The notes beneath the pieces are model-generated. The model made no database searches and was not told where the DNA came from. It saw nothing but the letters and a program-made list of their open reading frames with translations. Below are positions 1 through 16,057 of a DNA stretch of 37,913 bases, in pieces (position 1 is the stretch's first letter; each line of letters opens with the position of its first letter). Origin of the DNA: Gemmatimonadota bacterium (GTDB lineage Bacteria; Gemmatimonadota; Gemmatimonadetes; Gemmatimonadales; Gemmatimonadaceae). The stretch lies in the NCBI GenBank assembly GCA_016194585.1, contig JACQBG010000022.1:1-37913 (forward strand), written 5' to 3'. The position numbers and the translations under genes were made by a program.

Positions 1-726
1 GACGACGGGCGCGGCGCGACCCCCGGCGCGCTCGCGCACACCATCACGCGCGAGGCGCGGCCGGCGCGCCCGCTCGCGCGCGTCGCCCCGCTCTTCGAAC
101 GGTGCCGCGCCCTGCTCGACACGTGGACGCTCACCGCCCCCGTGTGCGCCGTCGCCGTCGCGGTGAGCGCCACGGCACCGCTCGCCGCCGAACAAGGCGA
201 CCTGCTCGCCGCGTCGTGGCGCGACCCCGGCGCGGCCGACGCGGCGTTCGAGCGGCTGCGCTCCACGCTCGGCGCGGGAACGGTGGTGCGCCCCGTGGCG
301 CGGGACGAACACCGGCCGGAGAAGGCCGGCGTGTGGACGGAACTGCACGACGACGAAGCAGGGCCGACGGAGCGGCACGCGGGCGCGTGCAGCGTGCAGG
401 GGGTGGAACCGACGGCGCGGGACGCGGACGCGTGCAACGTGCAGGGGCAAGCCCCCGCATCGAACACGATGCTCGCCCTCGCGCGATTGCTCGAGCGCCC
501 TGAGCGCGTCGACGTCGAGACGGCACGCGGGGTGCCGCGCGTCGTCCGGTGGCGCGCGCAACGCATCGCCATCGCCGACGCGCGCGGCCCCGAACGCGTG
601 AGCGGCGACTGGTGGAAGGACCCCTACGCCCGCGACTACTGGCGGTGCGCGAGCGACGAGCTGGCGCGGGAATTCCTGCTCTACCGCGATGCCAGCGGGT
701 GGTCGTTGCAGGGATGGTTCGACTGA
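1..726 (+). CDS. imuB: Y-family DNA polymerase ImuB-like protein, 3' part
   Basis: The frame is open from base 1, so only the last 241 codons are present and the catalytic palm lies outside the window. The C-terminal pattern around residues 195-241 (GPERVSGDWW, then YARDYWRC, then LLYRD and WSLQGWFD) is the characteristic tail of ImuB/DinP-like proteins. ImuB is a catalytically weak Y-family polymerase that links the DnaE2 polymerase to the beta clamp during SOS mutagenesis. The expected partner dnaE2 lies at 11360, about 10.6 kb away and not in the same operon. Residues about 117-154 are an Ala/Gly/Glu-rich insert containing a 15-residue imperfect tandem repeat between the conserved HRPEKAGVW and the segment beginning LALARLL. 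A GTG at 142 is internal and is not the start. imuA would be expected just upstream but cannot be seen. Confidence 0.8.
   Translation, partial: DDGRGATPGALAHTITREARPARPLARVAPLFERCRALLDTWTLTAPVCAVAVAVSATAPLAAEQGDLLAASWRDPGAADAAFERLRSTLGAGTVVRPVARDEHRPEKAGVWTELHDDEAGPTERHAGACSVQGVEPTARDADACNVQGQAPASNTMLALARLLERPERVDVETARGVPRVVRWRAQRIAIADARGPERVSGDWWKDPYARDYWRCASDELAREFLLYRDASGWSLQGWFD
377..447. repeat. Two 26-bp direct repeats inside imuB, 45 bp apart
   Basis: Bases 377-402 and 422-447 match at 24 of 26 positions (both carry GCGTGCA, then CGTGCAGGGG). The offset of 45 bp is a multiple of three, so the frame is kept and 15 residues are duplicated. The repeat sits in the variable linker before the conserved C-terminal domain. 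It is not visibly related to the palindromic insertions in dnaE2. Confidence 0.75.
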
Positions 727-11248: not shown

Positions 11249-11277
11249 TTGTAGTTTCGGTGTTTATTCGGTATCTG
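11249..11277 (+). promoter_or_regulatory. Candidate promoter of dnaE2
   Basis: TTGTAG at 11249-11254 and TATCTG at 11272-11277 are separated by 17 bp, a sigma-70-like spacing. The patch is an AT-rich island in an otherwise very GC-rich gap and lies about 80 bases before the dnaE2 ATG. TTCGGT appears twice inside it, 12 bp apart, which could serve a regulator. dnaE2 genes are usually under LexA, but no known LexA box was recognised. Confidence 0.4.
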
Positions 11278-11359: not shown

Positions 11360-14300
11360 ATGTCGTACGCCGAGCTGCACTGCCATTCCACTTTCTCGAT
11401 GCTCGACGGCGCCGCGCACCCGGAGCAGCTCGTCGCGCGCGCCGTGGAGCTCGGACTCGGCGCGCTCGCGCTCACCGATCACGACGACGTGGGGGGCGCG
11501 GTGCGGTTCGCGACGGCGTCGAAGGCGGCGGGGTTCGCGGGGATCATCGGCGTGGAGTTGACGCTCGAGATCGCGCTGCCCGGTGCGCGAGCGGGCGACG
11601 CGCATGGTGCGCGGTCGTCCTCGGCCGCGCTCGGTGCGCGGTCGTCCTCGGCCGCGCTCGGTGCGCGGTCGTCCTCGGCCGCGCACGGTGCGCGGTCGGG
11701 CGTGACCGAGCATTCCCTTCGCGATGCTCTCGGACCGCTGCGCGGTCCTGCGGCCGCATCGCGGCGGGAACGCTCGGCCCCGCCCTCCCCAGGCACGGGT
11801 GCGGCGGATGGCGTGCGCGCTCTGCGCACCGATGCCCGGGCGACGCCCCTGTTGCACGCCATGCCACGCGACACGTACGCGGGCGAGAACACGGGCGTGT
11901 CCCCGGCATCGGCCCGCCCGGAGGCAGCGCGGGAGGGGCACGAGTCCGTTTTCGAGAGGCGGCCGCAGGACCGCGCAGCGGTCCGAGAGCCTCGCGAAAA
12001 CGGACTCGTGCCCCGACCAAGCGGGGGATCGCGACCAAGCGACAGCGCCCGACCAAGCGATGAAAGGACACTCACGCACTTGGTCCTCCTCGCCGAGGAC
12101 CGCGAGGGATACGGCAACCTCTGCACGCTCGTGACGCGCGCGCGGCTCGACCATCCGCGCGGGCGCCCGCGCGTGGACCTCGACACGCTCGCGCGCCACG
12201 CCGGCGGACTGTTCGCGCTCACCGGCTGTCCGCGCGGCTGGGTGCCGCGCCTCGTCGCGCGCGGCCGCGCCGATGCGGCGTGCGACGCCGCCGCGTCGCT
12301 CATCGACATCTTCGAGCGCCGCATCGCCATCGAGTGCTGGGACCACGCGCTCCCCGAGGAGCGCGCCGTCACGCGCGAGCTCATCGCGCTCGCCCGCGCG
12401 CTCGACGTGCCGTGGGTCGTCACCAACGACGCGCACTACGCCGCGCCCACGGGGCGGCTCGCCCACGACGTGCTCGTGGCGCTCCGGCACGGCGCGACGC
12501 TCGACGAGATGGGGACGCGCCTGCGCCCCAACGGCGAGTGGTACCTCAAGGGGCCCGCGCAGATGGCGCGCCGCTGGCAGGGCTACGAATCGGGACTCGC
12601 GGCCACGCTCGCCATCGCCGAGCGGTGCGCGTTCCGGCTCGAGGACGTGAAGCCGTCGTTGCCCACCTTCCCGCTCCCGCCGGGGGTGAGCGACGACGCC
12701 TACCTCGCGCAGCTCGTGCAGCAGGGCGCCGACGAGCGGTGGGGATGGCGCCGCACGGCACGCCACGACGCGCAGATCGAGCACGAGCTCACGCTCATCG
12801 CCAAGCTCGGCCTCGCCGGCTACTTCCTCATCGTGTGGGATATCGTGCGCTTCGCGCGCCGCGAGGGGATCCTCTGCCAGGGGCGCGGCTCGGCGGCGAA
12901 CAGCGCCGTGTGCTACGCGCTCGGCATCACGGCGGTGGACCCGATCAAGCTGGAATTGCTGTTCGAGTGCTTCCTCAGTGAAGAGCGCAAGGAGGCGCCC
13001 GACATCGACATCGACTTCGCGCACCGCGACCGCGAGCGCGTGCTGCAGTACGTGTACGAGCGCTACGGGCGCGAGCACGCGGCGATGGTGTGCGAGCACA
13101 TCACGTGGCGCGGGCGGAGCGCGGTGCGCGACGCGGCGCGCGTGCTGGGGTTCTCGGTGCAGCAGGCGGAGGCGCTGGCGACGTTCAGCGACCGTTTCTC
13201 GGCGAAGTCGACAGCCGAGGCGCTCCGCGTGGATGGCGTCGCGGGCGACGCGGACGGCGACGTGGCCGACCCGTTCCGCCCGGAGCAGCAGGACGCGAAG
13301 GGGCCGGCGGGGTATTCGAAGGAGCTCGACGCGAAGCGGCTCGCGGAGAATGTCGGCATGGACATGATGACGGGCACGCACGCGGTGACGCGCATGCGGG
13401 CCGAGCGCGAGCAGGCGCGTCGCGAGTTCGGTGCCGGTGCTGCTGGTGCGCGGTCGGTCGGGGCAGATATTGCTCCCCGCGATGCTCTCGGACCGCTGCG
13501 CGGTCCTGCGGCCGCATCGCGGGGAGCAACATCTGCCCCTCTCTCCCCGGGCAATGGCGCGTCGGATGGTGTGCTCGCGTCGCGCACCGACGCCCGGGCC
13601 ACGCCCGTGCTTCACTCCGCCGCGCCGGTCAGCGACGGGGCAGAGGACACGGGCGTGGCCCAGGCGTCGCCGCGCACGGATGCAACGCGGGAGGGAGCCG
13701 TGCCCGTTTTCGAGAGGCGGCCGCAGGACGCCGCAGGCGTCCGAGAGCCTCGCGAAAACGGGCACGGCTCCCGACCAAGCGGTGAGCACAGCGCGAACTC
13801 GCTACTGGAACGCGCGGGGCTCGACCCGCACGATCCACGCGTGCAGCGACTCGCCGACATCGTCGCCGGACTGCACCAGGCGCCGCGCCACCGCGGCATC
13901 CACGTCGGCGGGTTCGTGCTCACGAAGGAGCCGCTGCACACCGTCGTCCCCATCGAGCCCGCGGCGATGGACGAGCGCACCGTCATCCAGTGGGAGAAGG
14001 ACGACCTCGACCCGGTCGGCCTCGTGAAGATCGACCTCCTCGGCCTCGGCATGCTCACCGTGCTGCAGGACTGCCTCAAGTACATCCGCGCGACGCGCGG
14101 CGTGACGCTCGACCTCGGGCAGCTCGACCATCGCGACCAGGCCGTGTACGACGATCTCTGCCGCGCCGACACGGTCGGCGTGTTCCAGGTGGAGAGCCGC
14201 GCGCAGATGAACACGCTGCCGCGCCTCAAGCCGCGCTGCTTCTACGACCTCGTCGTCGAGGTCGCGCTCATCAGGCCCGGCCCCATCCAGGGCGACATGG

Positions 14301-16057
14301 TGCATCCGTACCTGCGGCGGCGCGCCGGCGAGGAAGCGGTCACGTATCCGCATCCGTCGCTCGAACCGATCCTCAGGCGCACGATGGGGGTGCCGCTCTT
14401 CCAGGAGCAGGGGATGCAGGTCGCGATCGCCGCCGCGGGATTCACGCCGGGGGAGGCGGATGTGCTGCGCAAGGCGATGGGGCACAAGCGCAGTCGCGAG
14501 CGCATGGCCGACATCTGCGCGAAGATGATCGCCGGCATGCGCGCCAACGGCATCCCCGAGGACGTGGCGCTCAGGATCTACAACCAGATCAACGCCTTCG
14601 CCGACTACGGTTTTCCGGAGAGCCACGCGGCGAGCTTCGCGCTCATCGTGTATGGCAGCGCGTACCTGCGGCACTACTACGCGCCGGAGTATCTCTGCGC
14701 GATGCTCAACGCGCAGCCGATGGGATTCTACTCGGCGGGGACGCTCGTCGAGGATGCGAAGCGGCACGGCGTGCGCGTGCTGCCGGTGGACGCGACGCGC
14801 TCGGCGTGGGACCACACGCTCGAGTGCGCGGACGGCACGGTGATCGTGCCGCACGACGGGGTGATCGCGGTGCACGCTGGTGCTGGCGCTGGTGCAGCGT
14901 CCGACGCATTCGGTGCGCGGTCGGGCGTGACCGCGCATTCCCTTCGCGAGGCTCTCGGACCGCTGCGCGGTCCTGCGGCCGCTTCGCGGCGGGAACGCGC
15001 GGCCCCGCCCTCCCCAGGCACTGGTGCGTCGGACGGCACGCCCGCAGCACGCATCGATACTCGGGTCACACCCGCGCCACACAGCGTCGCGCACACAGAT
15101 GCCCGGGCCACGCCCGTGCCGCACGCCACGTCGGTCACCGTGGGGGCGGAGAACACGGGCGTGGCCCAAGCATCCGTGCGGGCGGATGCAGCGCGGGAGG
15201 GGCCCGCGTCCGTTTTCGAGAGGCGGCCGCAGGACCGCGAAGCGGTCCGAGAGCCTCGCGAGAACGGGCGCGGGCCCCGACCAAGCGGCGGATCCCGACC
15301 AAGCGGTGAGCCCCGGCCAAGCGGCAAAGCGCCGGCCGTACGCCTCGGCTTTCGCAGCATCCGCGGCCTCGGCTCGCACGCCCGCCAGAAGATCGAGCGT
15401 GCGCTCGAGCGCGGCCCGTTCGCCGGGATCCACGATTTCGTGCAACGCACCGGACTCGACCAACGCGCGCTGCGCTTCGTCGCCGAGAGCGGCGCGCTCG
15501 ACGCGTTCGTGCAGGACGAGCCGCACGCCCGGCGCCGGCGCGTCGCGCTCTGGCGCGTGCTCGAAGCCGTGCGCGGCACCGGCGGCCCGCTCGCGCTCTT
15601 CCCCGAGACCCCCGTGCCCGGCGGGCTGCCCCCGCTCTCCGCACCCGAACTCACCGAGGGCGACTACCGCCTCACCGGCCTTTCATTGAATGGGCACCCC
15701 ATGCGCCACCTGCGGCCGCTCCTCGTGCCGAACGGCGTGCTCACGGCGCGCGACACCGCGCGCCAGCGCGACGGTACGCGGGTCGGCGTGGCGGGGCTCG
15801 TCATCTGCCGGCAGCGCCCGGGCACCGCGAAGGGATTCGTCTTCCTCACCCTCGAAGACGAGACGGGGATGCTCAACGTCGTCGTCACGCCGCAGCGGTT
15901 CGAGCGGCAGGCGCTGCTCATCACGCGCTCGCCGCTGCTGCTCGTGCGCGGCACGCTGCAGATCGAGCAGCGCGTCGTGAACCTGCGCGGCGAGGAGTTC
16001 ATCGCCCTTGGCGCGACCGCGGGAGCGGCACACGCCAAGAGCCATGACTTTCATTGA
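11360..16057 (+). CDS. dnaE2: Error-prone DNA polymerase III alpha subunit DnaE2 with three large insertions
   Basis: The protein has 1565 residues, against about 1050-1100 for ordinary DnaE2/ImuC. The N-terminal PHP domain starts YAELHCHSTFSMLDGA. The polymerase core includes GRGSAANSAVCYALG and PDIDIDF, whose Asp residues (548, 550) bind the catalytic metals. Later blocks are RHRGIHVGGFVLT, KIDLLGLGMLTVLQD, FQVESRAQMNTLPRLKPR, FQEQGMQVAIAAAGF and ADYGFPESHAASFA. The C-terminal OB fold reads GVAGLVICRQRPGTAKGF and LEDETGMLNVVV. DnaE2 performs SOS translesion synthesis with ImuA/ImuB. The excess length is three Arg/Pro/Ala-rich inserts at residues about 75-236, 691-812 and 1173-1323. They sit in loops between conserved blocks and contain no stop or frameshift, so the gene looks functional. 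Unusually it is not adjacent to imuB. Confidence 0.93.
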   Translation: MSYAELHCHSTFSMLDGAAHPEQLVARAVELGLGALALTDHDDVGGAVRFATASKAAGFAGIIGVELTLEIALPGARAGDAHGARSSSAALGARSSSAALGARSSSAAHGARSGVTEHSLRDALGPLRGPAAASRRERSAPPSPGTGAADGVRALRTDARATPLLHAMPRDTYAGENTGVSPASARPEAAREGHESVFERRPQDRAAVREPRENGLVPRPSGGSRPSDSARPSDERTLTHLVLLAEDREGYGNLCTLVTRARLDHPRGRPRVDLDTLARHAGGLFALTGCPRGWVPRLVARGRADAACDAAASLIDIFERRIAIECWDHALPEERAVTRELIALARALDVPWVVTNDAHYAAPTGRLAHDVLVALRHGATLDEMGTRLRPNGEWYLKGPAQMARRWQGYESGLAATLAIAERCAFRLEDVKPSLPTFPLPPGVSDDAYLAQLVQQGADERWGWRRTARHDAQIEHELTLIAKLGLAGYFLIVWDIVRFARREGILCQGRGSAANSAVCYALGITAVDPIKLELLFECFLSEERKEAPDIDIDFAHRDRERVLQYVYERYGREHAAMVCEHITWRGRSAVRDAARVLGFSVQQAEALATFSDRFSAKSTAEALRVDGVAGDADGDVADPFRPEQQDAKGPAGYSKELDAKRLAENVGMDMMTGTHAVTRMRAEREQARREFGAGAAGARSVGADIAPRDALGPLRGPAAASRGATSAPLSPGNGASDGVLASRTDARATPVLHSAAPVSDGAEDTGVAQASPRTDATREGAVPVFERRPQDAAGVREPRENGHGSRPSGEHSANSLLERAGLDPHDPRVQRLADIVAGLHQAPRHRGIHVGGFVLTKEPLHTVVPIEPAAMDERTVIQWEKDDLDPVGLVKIDLLGLGMLTVLQDCLKYIRATRGVTLDLGQLDHRDQAVYDDLCRADTVGVFQVESRAQMNTLPRLKPRCFYDLVVEVALIRPGPIQGDMVHPYLRRRAGEEAVTYPHPSLEPILRRTMGVPLFQEQGMQVAIAAAGFTPGEADVLRKAMGHKRSRERMADICAKMIAGMRANGIPEDVALRIYNQINAFADYGFPESHAASFALIVYGSAYLRHYYAPEYLCAMLNAQPMGFYSAGTLVEDAKRHGVRVLPVDATRSAWDHTLECADGTVIVPHDGVIAVHAGAGAGAASDAFGARSGVTAHSLREALGPLRGPAAASRRERAAPPSPGTGASDGTPAARIDTRVTPAPHSVAHTDARATPVPHATSVTVGAENTGVAQASVRADAAREGPASVFERRPQDREAVREPRENGRGPRPSGGSRPSGEPRPSGKAPAVRLGFRSIRGLGSHARQKIERALERGPFAGIHDFVQRTGLDQRALRFVAESGALDAFVQDEPHARRRRVALWRVLEAVRGTGGPLALFPETPVPGGLPPLSAPELTEGDYRLTGLSLNGHPMRHLRPLLVPNGVLTARDTARQRDGTRVGVAGLVICRQRPGTAKGFVFLTLEDETGMLNVVVTPQRFERQALLITRSPLLLVRGTLQIEQRVVNLRGEEFIALGATAGAAHAKSHDFH
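11582..12067. repeat. Palindromic insertion element in dnaE2, copy 1
   Basis: This stretch interrupts the PHP domain. Order of parts: three 27-bp tandem repeats (11606-11686); a hairpin at 11704-11779 whose inner stem is GGACCGC/GCGGTCC; a degenerate middle inverted repeat around GATGCC and GGCATC; a second hairpin at 11935-12014 with perfect 20-bp arms (11935-11954 and 11995-12014); then three 18-bp units carrying CGACCAAGCG. The 31 bases at 11727-11757 are the exact reverse complement of 11959-11989, so the two hairpins are inverted copies. Translation gives about 162 residues and keeps the frame. Confidence 0.85.
11606..11697. repeat. 27-bp tandem repeat in dnaE2 insertion 1
   Basis: Three nearly identical units (11606-11632, 11633-11659, 11660-11686) are followed by a partial fourth. 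Each contains GGTGCGCGGTCG and encodes nine residues, read as GARSSSAAL. The unit's CGCGGTCG motif is an approximate complement of CGACCAAGCG found at the other end of the insertion. Confidence 0.85.
13430..13795. repeat. Palindromic insertion element in dnaE2, copy 2
   Basis: The same architecture is inserted after the conserved block ending EQARREF and before LLERAGLDPHDPR. Hairpin one spans 13460-13539 with 26-base arms matching at 25 positions and the inner stem GGACCGC/GCGGTCC. The middle inverted repeat uses GACGCC and GGCGTC around the CACGCCCGTG/CACGGGCGTG pair (20 of 22 paired). Hairpin two spans 13693-13772 with perfect 20-bp arms and an inner stem changed to GGACGCC/GGCGTCC, a change on both sides that keeps the pairing. 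It ends in a single CGACCAAGCG unit. It encodes about 122 residues in frame. Confidence 0.85.
14876..15330. repeat. Palindromic insertion element in dnaE2, copy 3
   Basis: This copy lies between the conserved VIVPHDGVIAVHA and AVRLGFRSIRGLG. Hairpin one (14929-15004) has arms matching at 19 of 24 bases and the same GGACCGC/GCGGTCC core. The middle repeat uses GATGC and GCATC around CCACGCCCGTG/CACGGGCGTGG. Hairpin two has 20-bp arms at 15199-15218 and 15259-15278 (18 of 20 paired; loop GAA instead of GCA). It ends with three 18-bp units carrying CGACCAAGCG or CGGCCAAGCG. It encodes about 151 residues and keeps the frame. Confidence 0.85.

Follow-up and report, generated by a model that had tools for sequence, protein, structure and literature searches.

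Several families of palindromic repeats are known to occur within genes. REP and BIME sequences tagged with GTAG or CGTC are short palindromes that are mostly intergenic, often arranged as inverted dimers and in some cases placed in frame within genes (PMC3733652). Many of the genes that host such copies serve DNA replication and repair. A 2013 report described in-frame REPs in DnaE2 and in further repair genes, which in some species were the sole REP-bearing ORFs; the preference of in-gene palindromic repeats for repair genes was noted at that time, mostly in Proteobacteria, and was left unexplained (PMC3733652). Rickettsia palindromic elements (RPEs), of which RPE-4 and RPE-6 are counted among CGTC-type REPs (PMC3733652), are inserted in frame in many protein genes, where they are tolerated by the protein, and the identity of their repeats reportedly decays with time (PMC6649704). 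REPINs with RAYT consist of two inverted palindromes that flank a spacer (PMC3116915), and nematomorph mitochondria contain long inverted repeats that are kept paired in translated genes (PMC6649704).

The window analyzed here (37,913 nucleotides) is an entire contig (G000:C34) from a 3.34-Mb genome whose relatives are Gemmatimonadaceae. The product of its dnaE2 gene scores 1233.7 bits against the NCBIfam model NF004225 ('error-prone DNA polymerase'; cut-off 939). At its left end the window is joined in mid-imuB by contig C46, which carries the N-terminal part of imuB together with imuA. The imuB product is an IMS-type polymerase by domain match, and the imuA product matches the ImuA model weakly. 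Upstream of dnaE2, at window positions 11256-11271, lies a direct-repeat box, TTCGG-N6-TTCGG, which recurs at L015 2423. Nearly all element-bearing genomes examined have this box upstream of dnaE2 and/or imuA, with 0.08 occurrences expected per window, and it is absent near the intergenic hairpin copies described below. The box is a candidate SOS/mutasome operator of Gemmatimonadaceae.

The initial annotation of this DNA described three related palindromic inserts in dnaE2, each consisting of a hairpin A and its inverted copy on either side of a middle inverted repeat, and ending in CGACCAAGCG units. This description holds (Table 1). The three stretches are diverged direct repeats of one another (61-77% over 300 nt), and inverted repeats were found in each. 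The terminal CGACCAAGCG units number three, one and two in inserts 1, 2 and 3, plus one degenerate unit, and they are the complement of the foot motif CGCTTGGTCG that adjoins the hairpin. Folding of the six dnaE2 hairpins as single-stranded DNA gave values far below dinucleotide shuffles for four of them (z -7.3 to -10.9); the other two, which stand on the left of inserts 1 and 3, are imperfect (z -3.2 and -2.0). The inner stem of A' in insert 2, GGACGCC/GGCGTCC, is a compensatory variant. Half-hairpins or feet are tandemly duplicated in insert 1 and in imuA.

Table 1. Features of the window (positions in nucleotides from its first letter).
Feature	Position	Strand	Description
imuB, C-terminal part	1..723	+	N-terminal part on contig C46, joining here
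dnaE2 (error-prone DNA polymerase), three inserts	11360..16057	+	single ORF, 1565 aa
Insert 1	11577..12070	+	494 nt; PHP domain, between two predicted beta strands; edges from empty site
27-bp tandem repeat, 3.7 copies, left edge of insert 1	11599..11698	+	
Hairpin A, insert 1 (84-nt unit)	11700..11783	+	covariance model R1 match; folding
Inverted hairpin A', insert 1	11933..12016	-	R1 match; folding z -9.9
Three CGACCAAGCG foot units, insert 1 (complement of CGCTTGGTCG)	12014..12059	+	
Insert 2	13430..13795 (approximate)	+	aligned to Taq Pol III alpha residues 524-551
Hairpin A, insert 2	13458..13541	+	R1 match; folding z -9.4
Middle inverted repeat, insert 2	13582..13675	+	28-nt arms, 89% complementary
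Inverted hairpin A', insert 2	13691..13774	-	R1 match; folding z -10.9
Insert 3	14875..15329	+	455 nt; aligned to Taq alpha residues 880-887; edges from empty site
Hairpin A, insert 3	14925..15008	+	R1 match; folding
Middle inverted repeat, insert 3	15088..15184	+	
Inverted hairpin A', insert 3	15197..15280	-	R1 match; folding z -7.3

Empty sites in relatives, which the initial annotation had named as a check on its reading, do exist. The closest relative, G017 (~91% nucleotide identity), has 14 nt opposite the 494 nt of insert 1 and 26 nt opposite the 455 nt of insert 3. This comparison covers sites 1 and 3, the part of dnaE2 around site 2 not being recovered in G017, and it is these empty sites that define the boundaries of the two inserts. 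Since the alignment of the empty sites stops at the edges of the inserts, with both arms inside the inserted DNA, we can eliminate the possibility that an apex was inserted into a pre-existing palindrome. In another relative, G008, the element is missing from all three dnaE2 sites, and DnaE2 is 431 residues shorter (1134 versus 1565 aa), close to the gain of about 435 residues that had been claimed. Site 3 of G008 holds a GAEH tandem repeat instead, and the dnaE2 loop sites in L043, L046, L132 and L042 carry unrelated tandem or heptamer-type repeats (AAPAAP, GGRRTA, GAEHGAEH). The presence of unrelated repeats in the same DnaE2 loops of relatives indicates that these sites accept insertions generally. 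Intact copies are absent from the close relatives G016 and G017, and G006 and G008 carry copies in imuA only. G016 retains fragments of an element that its relative G014 has intact, so elements are probably lost too.

Comparison of the copies revealed that the basic unit is a hairpin of ~84-92 nt, often present in inverted pairs. The composite layout originally taken as the element is real, but at ~340-410 nt it represents one arrangement of this unit. Inverted pairs with a spacer occur in inserts 1-3, in imuA of G006 and G008, and between genes in G014 (C137), G015 (C6) and G166 (C195); in G000 the spacer has an inverted repeat of its own. The unit has three parts: a foot resembling GGTC, a stem of ~26 bp whose sequence is free as long as the two arms are complementary, and a ~29-nt apex, CTCTCGGACCGC-TNC-GCGGTCCTGCGGCC, which is nearly invariant, including its non-palindromic sides CTCTC and TGCGGCC.

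To quantify pairing in the stem, we used a gap-free alignment of 40 hairpins over 84 columns, in which 35 pairs form a 28-pair outer stem and a 7-pair inner stem with an internal loop between them. Across these pairs, 298 cells have changed on both sides, and 87.9% of cells are paired compared to 67.4% in shuffles. Covariation reaches 0.505 against 0.151 ± 0.010 in shuffled alignments, and at most 0.12 in slid-partner controls, which keep relatedness. Selection for RNA pairing would favor G-U. On the mRNA strand of the mutasome copies used, however, G-U and A-C mismatches are equally frequent (32 each), so the pairing looks maintained at the DNA level and RNA-level selection can be rejected. 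The best Rfam match to a structured RNA scores 24.7 bits against a gathering cut-off of 46, which also eliminates a known RNA family. Template switching during replication is a documented route by which quasipalindromes become more perfect (PMC7202029), and it may be acting on these stems.

Further copies, likewise named as a check, were found in imuA and imuB. The host genome has only two copies beyond dnaE2, both on contig C46, one in imuB and one in imuA; all eight of its hairpins lie inside imuA, imuB or dnaE2, and the family search detected none in the ~10 kb of the window between imuB and dnaE2. The view of dnaE2 as the insertion host therefore stands for the three inserts, but not for dnaE2 alone. 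Scanning 84,980 species genomes with the pattern CTCTCGGAC-N9-GTCCTGCGGCC matched 18 stretches; 16 are in records titled Gemmatimonadota, Gemmatimonadetes or similar, and one is in a record titled 'bacterium' that is a family member. The match in Actinomadura lies inside an unrelated glutamate dehydrogenase-like gene and was taken as chance. The covariance model R1, run on 179 Gemmatimonadaceae genomes, gave 53 matches which, less two reverse-strand duplicates, represent 51 hairpins in 20 genomes, with 0-8 hairpins per genome. A phylum-wide search (395 genomes) added a single weak match outside this family.

Thirty-three of the 51 hairpins are within dnaE2, imuA or imuB, in 17 genomes, and inspection of flanking genes placed all 18 others between genes. 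The neighbors of these intergenic copies, which by recognition from sequence we take to include hflX, lon, eno, map and yraN-recA, share no theme. Mutasome coding sequence makes up ~0.2% of a genome, and ~0.1 of the 51 copies would be expected there by chance; the 33 in-gene copies are not independent, shared descent reducing them to an estimated eight or more site-by-lineage events, and the bias towards mutasome genes stays very large despite this. Within the genus, DnaE1 open frames (G000, G003, G006, G008, G014, G016 and G017) are mostly 1167-1171 codons long and contain no inserts. UvrA, a frequent target of REPs in other cases, aligned to its model free of insertions in eight of ten genomes (for both paralogs, where these were whole), the matches in G008 and G012 being split or partial and left out of this control. 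Since no inserts are present in these DnaE1 frames or in UvrA of the eight genomes, we can reject a general tendency of repair and replication genes.

Candidates for a mobilizing agent were considered as well. Of 27 genomes, 25 lack the Y1 transposase (IS200-type, which includes RAYTs; PF01797), the single-contig G175 among them, and the other two encode one protein with an internal stop and one at a contig edge; a RAYT/Y1 mobilizer was rejected on these grounds. Carriage by phage or plasmid was discarded for lack of a match. Insert 1 has no match in G000 outside the mutasome genes and hence no parent element with the same ends, which argues against a MITE of a resident insertion sequence.

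Some copies deviate from the common form. A longer variant with an extra inner apex segment of ~20 nt is intergenic in G149 (C28 13352-13457; C76 9867 and 11978) and G151 (C75 49640), and one such copy sits between ftsK and yraN-recA. Two near-identical inverted hairpin pairs lie 50 kb apart on one contig (G015:C6:113792-113983 and 163656-163847); the genes downstream of them encode a MacB-like permease and a protease-like protein. Contigs tend to break in or near hairpin-bearing genes (G000:C46/C34, G008:C119, G014:C43/C137). In G139, dnaE2 breaks at a hairpin (C54 ~7015, L141), where the sequence following its N-terminal half is unrelated, and contig C179 carries the C-terminal half; this break could be either a rearrangement or a misassembly at the palindrome.

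All 33 in-gene copies are inserted in frame, the copy in G139 being followed by a stop at the dnaE2 break. This extends the earlier observation that dnaE2 of the window stays in frame. Across genera the apex is translated as ALGPLRGPAAAS, RPQDRAAVRE or AAAGPRSGPRAS, which correspond to three of six frames and to both orientations; the unused frames are two that contain cysteine and one rich in arginine. All five copies of G000 use one frame. One imuA copy of G006 was labelled as imuB frame 0 through gene overlap, and the orthologous G008 copy is read in the usual frame. Genus g13 has one site where the apex points in opposite directions in G029 and G154 between similar flanks, as would be expected of an inversion in place. 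The dnaE2 copies differ from one another by indels of 3, 9, 27, 30 and 39 nt, each divisible by three, and nonsynonymous codon changes exceed synonymous ones by ~2-3 to 1. Taken together, these two observations indicate that the frame is constrained and the amino-acid sequence is not. With frames that differ between genera and unconstrained amino acids, a function at the protein level can be rejected. Outside the inserts, DnaE2 residues that are identical between these genomes have a codon identity of 0.59-0.72, so the exact conservation of the apex across genera is a property of the nucleotide sequence, or else reflects recent spread.

The initial annotation also raised loop-coding sites as possible targets and took the elements to be translated or somehow tolerated; the location in loop-coding sites and the in-frame reading are both supported. 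Their sites correspond to residues 73-94, 524-551 and 880-887 of Taq Pol III alpha, the second presumably in the thumb region. An AlphaFold2 model of the first ~580 residues assigns insert 1 a pLDDT of ~27 and no secondary structure, between two predicted beta strands. This model is weak overall (mean pLDDT 55.6, 19 sequences), and it supports, but does not prove, that insert 1 is disordered.

We think it probable that the inserts belong to a family of non-autonomous palindromic repeats that occurs at low copy number in Gemmatimonadaceae and works much as REP/BIME sequences or RPEs do. The repeat unit would multiply at the DNA level, and a copy that inserts into a variable surface loop of DnaE2, ImuA or ImuB would survive, presumably without benefit to the cell, if read through in one of three harmless frames and translated as a disordered linker. 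Since compensatory changes are frequent and G-U pairs show no excess, arm-to-arm correction of DNA through template switching probably keeps the stem paired, and local copying within the imuA-imuB-dnaE2 region may add to the mutasome bias. Several observations count against this explanation: no mobilizing enzyme was found and no target-site duplication was demonstrated, 0-8 copies per genome is very low for a selfish repeat, and neutral tolerance fails to explain why in-gene copies are limited to three mutasome genes among thousands of dispensable ones. The invariant, non-palindromic apex also counts against it, since it suggests recognition by some partner.

An unlikely alternative, but one with several observations in its favor, is that the hairpins are cis-regulatory elements, the apex being read in DNA or mRNA by a factor that tunes the expression of imuA, imuB and dnaE2 or the stability of their mRNA, with the intergenic copies acting likewise on other genes. 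This would account for the confinement of every intragenic copy to mutasome genes, for the very stable hairpins, and for a non-palindromic apex that is conserved at the nucleotide level through three frames while codon identity in DnaE2 is as low as described above. However, an mRNA-level signal is at odds with G-U being no more common than A-C in the mRNA sense, and regulation of these genes with the lack of intact copies in G016 and G017 and the limitation of those in G006 and G008 to imuA. Copy number and position also vary freely, and the 18 intergenic copies have no common type of neighbor. If the partner suggested by the invariant apex were, for example, a mutasome protein, the hairpin could be a DNA element tied to translesion mutagenesis, with preferential gain or retention in imuA, imuB and dnaE2 and with feedback on the mutasome through copy control or targeted instability of mutator genes, a scenario we judge improbable.

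The initial annotation also suggested that the error-prone polymerase itself expands the inserts. In this case, template switching and slippage during synthesis by the mutasome at its own loci would create and enlarge palindromes and tandem repeats in loop-coding sites. The other repeats in the same loops of relatives (GAEH, AAP, heptamer-type), the tandem duplications in insert 1 and imuA, and the ability of template switching to perfect the arms of quasipalindromes (PMC7202029) are what such a process may produce, and template switching may indeed keep the arms paired. We nevertheless give this origin little credence, since an invariant apex common to four genera, and also located between unrelated genes, cannot arise de novo each time, and neither the intergenic copies nor the restriction to these loci is explained by it. 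That the inserts are functional protein modules, such as linkers that bind other parts of the mutasome, is very unlikely: all five copies of G000 share one frame and all three partner proteins carry a copy, but across genera the copies are read in three frames and both orientations, nonsynonymous changes are far above synonymous ones, insert 1 is predicted to be unstructured and several relatives do without an insert. Finally, although the host genome and most of those compared are metagenome assemblies whose contigs often end near hairpins, an assembly artefact is hardly credible given the agreement of independent assemblies from several projects, including the single-contig G175, the preserved frames and the strong covariation.

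We return to the reading as a non-autonomous repeat family to compare it with the known systems. Like the tagged REPs, the Gemmatimonadaceae repeats are short palindromes with inverted dimers and in-frame copies, but GTAG/CGTC REPs have stems of 5-13 bp and loops of 2-20 nt (PMC3733652) in place of a ~26-bp stem of free sequence and an invariant 29-nt apex. Of 40 copies, 14 have GGTC as the four nucleotides next to the stem (all of them in genera g1 and g47), 7 have GGCG (genus g13), and none has GTAG or CGTC at that position. The GGTC foot thus resembles the single-stranded tag of REPs but is a different motif, and in both tag and stem/loop size the family falls outside the GTAG-/CGTC-tagged REPs. 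It also differs from these in its copy number of 0-8 and in the restriction of in-gene copies to imuA, imuB and dnaE2. With REPIN/RAYT systems (PMC3116915) the family shares the inverted pair around a spacer, but it lacks Y1/RAYT in 25 of 27 genomes and the high dispersed copy number, and it also resides inside genes.

The resemblance to RPEs, noted from the outset, lies in palindromes that are inserted in frame in protein genes and tolerated there, and is thus a likeness of architecture. The arms of RPEs lose their identity (PMC6649704), whereas those of the Gemmatimonadaceae repeats stay paired by compensatory change, and RPEs occupy many genes rather than three. In the nematomorph palindromes both arms encode conserved protein (PMC6649704), whereas the Gemmatimonadaceae repeats encode an unconstrained linker. 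The initial annotation knew of no named element of this kind; consistent with this, we found no earlier report of the family in the open-access literature searched, but REPs in frame in DnaE2 had been published in 2013 (PMC3733652). What is new is the family itself, its architecture, the in-gene restriction to imuA/imuB/dnaE2 and the DNA-level covariation. The family provides a clean case of a long stem that is kept paired in translated sequence with no sign of RNA-level selection. It also represents an apparently unrelated repeat family, from another phylum, in which the same bias can be quantified: 33 of 33 in-gene copies are in dnaE2, imuA or imuB, and the 18 others are intergenic. That this preference recurs with unrelated repeats suggests a general cause, be it insertion bias, tolerance of rarely used proteins, or benefit, and through the Gemmatimonadaceae family the question as to why palindromic repeats favor mutasome genes becomes testable.
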